Shown here: positions 58,409 to 59,597 of the stretch, piece after piece
Position numbering within the stretch: position 1 is the stretch's first letter
How the letters are laid out: each line of letters begins with the position of its first letter
Assembly: GCA_015956445.1 (NCBI GenBank)
Contig: WIUZ02000001.1
Location: forward strand, 682,001-746,000
DNA length: 64,000 nucleotides
DNA from: Thelephora terrestris
Taxonomy: Eukaryota > Basidiomycota > Agaricomycetes > Thelephorales > Thelephoraceae
Direction of reading: 5' to 3'
Translations under genes and position numbers: made by a program
Notes under the pieces: generated by a model
Databases searched by the model: none
What the model was told of the DNA's origin: nothing
Seen by the model: the letters and a program-made list of their open reading frames with translations, nothing else

Positions 58409-59597
58409 CTAGTTCATCTGCCGGACGAGCTTGTTGATGTTAGCTTCCCGGTTACCAAAGTCACCACCCTGAACGTAGTGCTTGAATTTGCGTGTCCTCC
58501 AGCCACCGGTAGGGTTGGAGAGCTTGAAGGGCCACAGGAAGTTCGAAGCCTAAGATAAAATGTTAACCAAAGCTCTTACGTCTCAAATTTAGGTTCCTTG
58601 CCTGTTTGAAGTTAGGGCCAACAGTGAAAATTTCATGGACAAGGTCCTCGACGCAAAGAATGTCGTATTTTCCGAGTGCTTGCTCGATCACTTGGTTGTT
58701 GGAGAGAGGCACCCGCTGCTTATCAACCCTTCCGTAGCCGCGCTTGTAAACCAATTCGCGGACAGTTTTGAGGTTAGGCTCGCTGAAAATGGTTCAGCCT
58801 CTGTATGAGCATAAGCTTTCTAGAGATGACAGACCCATAGGTGATATATGGCTCAACAAGACGGAGCATCTGCTCGGTAGCCTTTGTGACCTTCACAAAA
58901 ACTCCATTGTTGATTTGCAGCAGACGGAGGAGCTGTAAGATTTTGCGGGGCTTGGGAGCAATCTCGTTGACACTACTCGTGAGATCAGACCTCGATCATC
59001 CCAGTGAGAAAGAATAGCAGGCAGGCATACCCCCGGATTCGAACAACAAAGTAGACTTTAGCCTGAGATGGAACGTAGAAGTTACCAGCTTGACGAGCAG
59101 CGCGCTTCAAACGGATTTCTTCCTTCTCCTTCGAGAGGTACTCTTTGACGTAGGCCTCGGCACGCTTGAACACTACTTTTCGCTTAGCTTTTGAAGCCTG
59201 ATAAAAGGGTGTTCAATACGAGGAACTCCAGCAACATTCGGAGATCAGTCCCGAAAGATGGTTGATTGAGGGCAGCACAGTGGAAGGTGTTCCCACTAGC
59301 CATTCAAAAGGAAATATGCATCATAAGAGCGCGGGTGGACGAAAAACTGACCTTGCGAGCAGCGGTCACGGCGGCAAGCTTGTCTTCCCGAGCCTTTTCG
59401 TTTTGTTTGCGTTTCTTGAGGAGAGTCTCTGGGACTTCGATGTCCTGGATGATCGGGAAATGAGTTTTTGGTCTCGCACTTTTGAACCGGTGATATTTAC
59501 CGTAGCGCTTGGGACCCTAGATAGAAAACCAGAAAGTCAGTATTTCGTCGGCAGGTTAGGAGACATTCGACAGAACATACGTCGTCGATGGGGCCAT
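58409..59597 (-). CDS. RPL7: 60S ribosomal protein L7 (uL30)
   Basis: Large-subunit protein of the cytosolic ribosome. Two tiny exons are needed at the 5' end: MAPSTT (59597-59581) and VPSAT, which join [31 protein letters not shown]. After a 154-bp intron (59351-59198): [116 protein letters not shown], and the last exon [45 protein letters not shown]. Full length, eight exons. The 154-bp intron is much longer than its neighbours and holds a probable snoRNA. Confidence 0.95.
59240..59330 (-). ncRNA. Probable C/D-box snoRNA in RPL7 intron (snR39/snR59/snR39b-like)
   Basis: On the RPL7 sense strand the intron has a box C (ATGATGC, 59324-59318; consensus RUGAUGA) and a box D (CTGA, 59248-59245). 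One nucleotide upstream of box D, ACCATCTTTCGGG (59262-59250) is perfectly complementary to CCCGAAAGATGGT, a universally conserved stretch of 25S rRNA. By the box D+5 rule the paired G of CCCG would be 2'-O-methylated (yeast Gm805; Am807 is two bases on). Yeast snR39 and snR59, guides for this site, live in RPL7A/RPL7B introns. Weak points: last base of box C is C, and no clear terminal stem or C'/D' pair was found. Confidence 0.7.

Follow-up and report, generated by a model that had tools for sequence, protein, structure and literature searches.

The third RPL7 intron in the window (the whole 64 000-nt stretch of DNA analysed) very probably encodes a C/D-box snoRNA that guides 2'-O-methylation of the G of CCCGAAAGAUGGU in 25S rRNA, the equivalent of yeast Gm805; from the sequence features described below, we give this reading a probability of ∼0.93. 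The link between an RPL7 intron and a snoRNA is not itself new. The arrangement has been reported across fungi in a 2021 survey, which gives the RPL7-intron position as kept in 82% of them (PMC8476143), and because of this the locus is real but ordinary. The suggestion in the initial annotation that the host–snoRNA linkage may be old had thus already been published. That annotation stood as regards a C/D guide on the sense strand of an RPL7 intron directed at Gm805, but its wording of a target conserved with that of yeast snR39/snR59 was not supported.

The RPL7 host gene and its introns

The host gene and the relevant intron are:

58409..59597, minus strand: RPL7 (uL30) host gene, for which the splice model gives one open frame of 250 aa in 7 exons
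59198..59351, minus strand: RPL7 intron 3, bearing the candidate snoRNA, 154 nt, GTCAGT...TATCAG

The RPL7 product contains the Pfam domains PF08079 (Ribosomal_L30_N) and PF00327 (Ribosomal_L30). Its closest PDB match is 7r81_I1, 60S ribosomal protein L7 (E 4e-116), and its best solved relatives are found in 7r81 and 7olc, the Neurospora and Chaetomium ribosomes, respectively. The splice model yields six introns of 64, 56, 154, 58, 52 and 52 nt, in gene order; intron 3 is indeed more than twice the local norm, as had been remarked, the other five being 52–64 nt long. Intron 3 is a phase 0 intron after codon 42, between K42 and A43, and presumably lies within ∼1 codon of yeast intron 2, given the yeast protein and exon lengths. 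Judged by these lengths and by the block of conserved sequence around K42|A43, it probably occupies the intron position of the yeast gene and of the 2021 survey. The host is, as first proposed, that of yeast snR39/snR59.

Two other features of the introns were observed. The last RPL7 intron (58550-58601, minus strand) has an apparent GC donor (GCAAGG...TTAG). In intron 3, box D and the base after it read CTGAT (59244-59248, minus strand), at a distance of 47 nt to the 3' splice site. A search with two simple branch-point patterns past intron position 100 returned only this CTGAT, which overlaps box D, and TTTAT, leaving CTGAT as the sole CTRAY-like branch-point motif in that part of the intron.

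Elements of the candidate snoRNA

The elements located on the sense strand of intron 3 are:

59245..59324, minus strand: candidate snoRNA core, from the start of box C to the end of box D, 80 nt
59318..59324, minus strand: box C AUGAUGC, 6/7 letters of the consensus RUGAUGA, final base C not A
59266..59302, minus strand: predicted internal hairpin separating box C from the guide, 11-12 bp and a single bulge
59250..59262, minus strand: guide ACCATCTTTCGGG (RNA ACCAUCUUUCGGG), 13-nt antisense to LSU CCCGAAAGAUGGU
59253, minus strand: fifth base before box D, a C, opposite the predicted methylation site, a G (sequence plus D+5 rule)
59249, minus strand: spacer A between guide and box D
59245..59248, minus strand: box D CUGA, the only CTGA on the sense strand of intron 3

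Read along the sense strand, the intron thus consists of 27 nt, box C, the hairpin, the guide, one A, box D and a last 47 nt before the splice site, with 55 nt separating box C from the guide. Box C and box D (59324-59318 and 59248-59245) and the 13-nt perfect antisense one base before box D (59262-59250) were found as the initial annotation had described them, and RTGATG does not occur on the plus strand of the intron. C/D-box guides have box C near the 5' end, box D near the 3' end and an rRNA antisense of 10-21 nt just before D or D'; the candidate agrees with this, its elements following the expected order with canonical spacing. A terminal stem was not apparent when the flanks were compared with shuffled ones. 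Shuffled flanks paired as well or better in 548/1000 cases for the whole flanks, in line with the earlier remark that no strong terminal stem is visible, and in 892/1000 cases for the inner 16 nt. The inner 55-nt region folds at −13.8 kcal/mol, a stability equalled by 18 of 1000 base shuffles, and the fold of the entire intron has no extra stability over shuffles (z 0.65, 150/200 shuffles as good).

A route from intron to methylated rRNA can be proposed, and we infer expression, processing, RNP assembly and methylation at this locus as follows. The snoRNA would be co-transcribed with RPL7, spliced out with intron 3, and released once the lariat is debranched and its ends are trimmed by exonucleases. 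Its C and D boxes would then fold into a kink-turn bound by the Snu13/Nop56/Nop58/fibrillarin core, the 13-nt guide would pair with 25S rRNA, and fibrillarin would 2'-O-methylate the G of CCCGAAAGAUGGU. A fibrillarin gene is present in the assembly. Release from the spliced lariat is supported by work in Fusarium graminearum, where intronic snR39 drops on deletion of the debranching enzyme gene (qRT-PCR) and snoRNA-bearing lariats build up (PMC9606315).

The rRNA target and the predicted methylation site

The guide forms 13 uninterrupted pairs with the Rfam consensus for eukaryotic LSU rRNA (LSU_rRNA_eukarya), which at the target reads GGACCCG-AAAGAuGGUGAACUAugCc in the alignment of contig L003. 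There are two candidate nucleotides in 25S rRNA: the G of CCCGAAAG, which corresponds to Gm805, and the second A, which corresponds to the snR39/snR59 site. By the D+5 rule (PMC2780460), C59253 faces the G of CCCG within CCCGAAAGAUGGU, the yeast Gm805 position, and the placement of the methylation on this G in the initial annotation was supported. The published target of snR39/snR59 is A807, two nucleotides from the predicted G805, which does not support the claim of a target shared with those snoRNAs: two distinct things, the host of snR39/snR59 and the nucleotide of snR39b, had been merged. In PMC2806949, A807 is given as the site of snR39 and snR59 and G805 as that of snR39b, and PMC3511168 has the same two-nucleotide offset in its own numbering.

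Two LSU patterns, searched with ≤2 and ≤1 mismatches, gave 0 matches in the assembly, which seems to be without rDNA; the fungus's own 25S target is for this reason deduced from general conservation. The end of contig L003 (3250-3430), catalogued as viral, aligns to LSU_rRNA_eukarya with 35.7 bits (E 2.1e-07), below the gathering score of 50, and because of this alignment L003 is possibly a cellular fragment.

Comparison with Rfam families

No family was found in the whole window at Rfam gathering thresholds, so the prediction that the snoRNA would be missed holds for these thresholds; a search of the window to E 10 gave 4 matches, none at RPL7 intron 3. When a 251-nt stretch was searched alone, three matches were obtained, all on the minus strand and all below threshold: TtnuCD19 (RF02295) with 23.0 bits against a threshold of 70 (E 1.1, whole model aligned), SNORD2 (RF01299) with 16.3 bits against 37, and snR39 (RF01197), the family named in the initial annotation, with 13.6 bits against 40 and the guide and D alone aligned. 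All three models align to one guide+CUGA stretch. These sub-threshold matches, as sequence comparisons, point to a common guide and boxes rather than to family membership.

Each of the three families resembles the candidate in part. Yeast snR39/snR59 are likewise C/D snoRNAs in an RPL7 intron with an overlapping 25S pairing site, and the RF01197 consensus also has its guide just before a 3'-terminal CUGA, in the same register; they differ in their published target, A807, whereas D+5 gives G805 here. SNORD2/snR39b shares the target G and has its guide CAUCUUUCGGG one base before CUGA. Its guide and CUGA, however, lie in the first half of the consensus beside box C, hence at the D' position, whereas here the terminal D is used. 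The human SNORD2 is hosted by an EIF4A2 intron, and yeast snR39b is an independent gene. Tetrahymena TtnuCD19 also has its guide before a 3'-terminal CUGA and the same UGAUGC, and the intron is identical to its Rfam consensus in two stretches, UAUGAUGCAUA at and beside box C and ACCAUCUUUCGGGACUGAU over the guide and D; the match gives no evidence of close kinship.

Two published fungal snoRNAs, compared here by their descriptions, are also intronic and are predicted by their authors to modify the same G. Table 1 of PMC2780460 lists Neurospora crassa CD47 (75 nt) as an intronic D guide of the snR39b type for 26S-Gm785; its asterisk means, according to the legend, not detected experimentally, yet the same row lists northern and reverse transcription. 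The box C/D table of that paper, non-exhaustive according to its authors, has no snR39/snR59 homologue. Table 2 of PMC3890542 lists Trichophyton rubrum TRnc_2265 (87 nt, intronic) under RF01197 with the target 25S Gm808. A counter-example comes from PMC5033589, in which snR39 and snR59 were not found in Candida parapsilosis, Candida orthopsilosis or Lodderomyces elongisporus.

Alternative explanations

Could the guide be a chance antisense within an unusually long intron? C...D pairs are common, with 15 at 45-110-nt spacing in the window, so the boxes alone are weak evidence. Chance figures were calculated from base composition, the generic ones for an assumed rRNA length of 5,200 nt with gaps of 0-2. 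For the exact 17-base guide+D motif the expectation is 0.005 per assembly and 9e-9 per intron; for a 13-nt antisense to any part of the rRNA, accompanied by box D and, upstream of it, box C, it is ∼4e-6 per intron and 0.003 per 64 kb. Of 20,000 base shuffles of intron 3, 2 reached 13 nt of complementarity to the target region when boxes were not required, while the longest such matches in the other five RPL7 introns are 5-6 nt. The 16-base guide+D pattern with ≤1 mismatch occurs once in the 40.6 Mb, exactly, at RPL7 intron 3 (reversed control 0); with 16 specified bases and one mismatch allowed, ∼1 chance match is expected in this length, so the strength lies in the exactness and location of the match and not in its being single. 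Target and host, moreover, match those of known snoRNAs. Chance is a poor explanation of guide and boxes, and we consider it extremely improbable. Nor is it at all likely that the locus is a decayed snoRNA, with a persisting guide whose RNA is no longer made. The altered box C (AUGAUGC), the missing terminal stem and the failure of any Rfam family to exceed its threshold would fit decay. A terminal stem closing the kink-turn is common among C/D snoRNAs, though not universal. Both guide and box D are intact, however, as is the UGAUG core within box C, the part that faces box D in the kink-turn; the Rfam consensus of TtnuCD19 also has UGAUGC, and the assembly has no other guide+D copy at ≤1 mismatch.

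A somewhat less remote alternative, though still an unlikely one, is that the snoRNA methylates A807, like yeast snR39/snR59, rather than G805. The host gene is the same, those snoRNAs lying in RPL7 intron 2 and guiding A807 (PMC5295604), and the layout and register shared with the RF01197 consensus make common descent plausible, whichever base is modified. Against A807 stands the D+5 base, which faces G805; a guide for A807 would have to lie two bases closer to box D. The pattern in the Am807 register, CATCTTTCGNYTGA, also had 0 exact matches in the assembly, a search that a diverged guide would escape. Host and target region may accordingly be conserved with the methylated nucleotide two off that of the yeast RPL7 snoRNAs.

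If G805 is the modified base, one can tentatively imagine a single old lineage of RPL7-intron snoRNAs in which the host was kept and the target moved. In this fungus it would be the only guide at the site and would make Gm805, as may also be true of filamentous ascomycetes at large; in the yeast lineage, the RPL7 copies would have shifted by two bases to Am807, with the separate snR39b taking over Gm805. We hold this history to be possible but doubtful, and a point against it is that the Rfam snR39 consensus, which ends ...CUUUCGGGGCUGA, itself also faces G805. Were the two-base target difference true, the label 'conserved snR59 in RPL7 intron' would mask a changed methylated nucleotide. The candidate Gm805 guide, which Rfam thresholds miss, extends a well-supported example of a snoRNA that has stayed with its host gene.

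Searches beyond the locus

Among viral contigs, the guide+D pattern was found in five (L004-L008), all taken as chance matches: RTGATG is absent from the upstream 110 bases in L004-L006, and L007 and L008, identical over the stretch shown, have one ATGATG each. RPL7 relatives were sought in the contig collections; 27 viral and 96 genome pattern matches were obtained, and 0 encode a relative by tblastn.

Across the genome, RF01197 gave 0 matches with 55 of 4297 candidates scored (8/14 prokaryote controls matched, none over the cut-off). For RF01299, searched at E up to 10 (12/14 prokaryote controls matched, none over the cut-off), the sole match was in L013, which at 21 bits (E 3.33) outscores the RPL7 locus (16.3). 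This stretch (L013 1501-1572; G000:C10:512591-512662, plus strand), CATCTTGCGGGGCTGA, has a guide with a single mismatch, adjacent to the target base, ahead of CTGA. It is probably a chance match, and possibly a second, imperfect guide.

A candidate for an snR38-like C/D snoRNA was also noted, the one snoR38 match in the genome (L012 1501-1589; G000:C59:1058731-1058819, minus strand). At 42.7 bits it falls just below its threshold of 45, an indication that known C/D families can be under-called in this genome. It shares its strand with an exon of eEF1B-gamma (GST_C and EF1G domains) that begins just downstream; the open reading frame flanking it at the opposite end has no Pfam match, so an intronic place is at most likely. 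Yeast snR38 sits in a TEF4 intron, and the snR38-like element with eEF1B-gamma is likely another host–snoRNA pair below Rfam thresholds.
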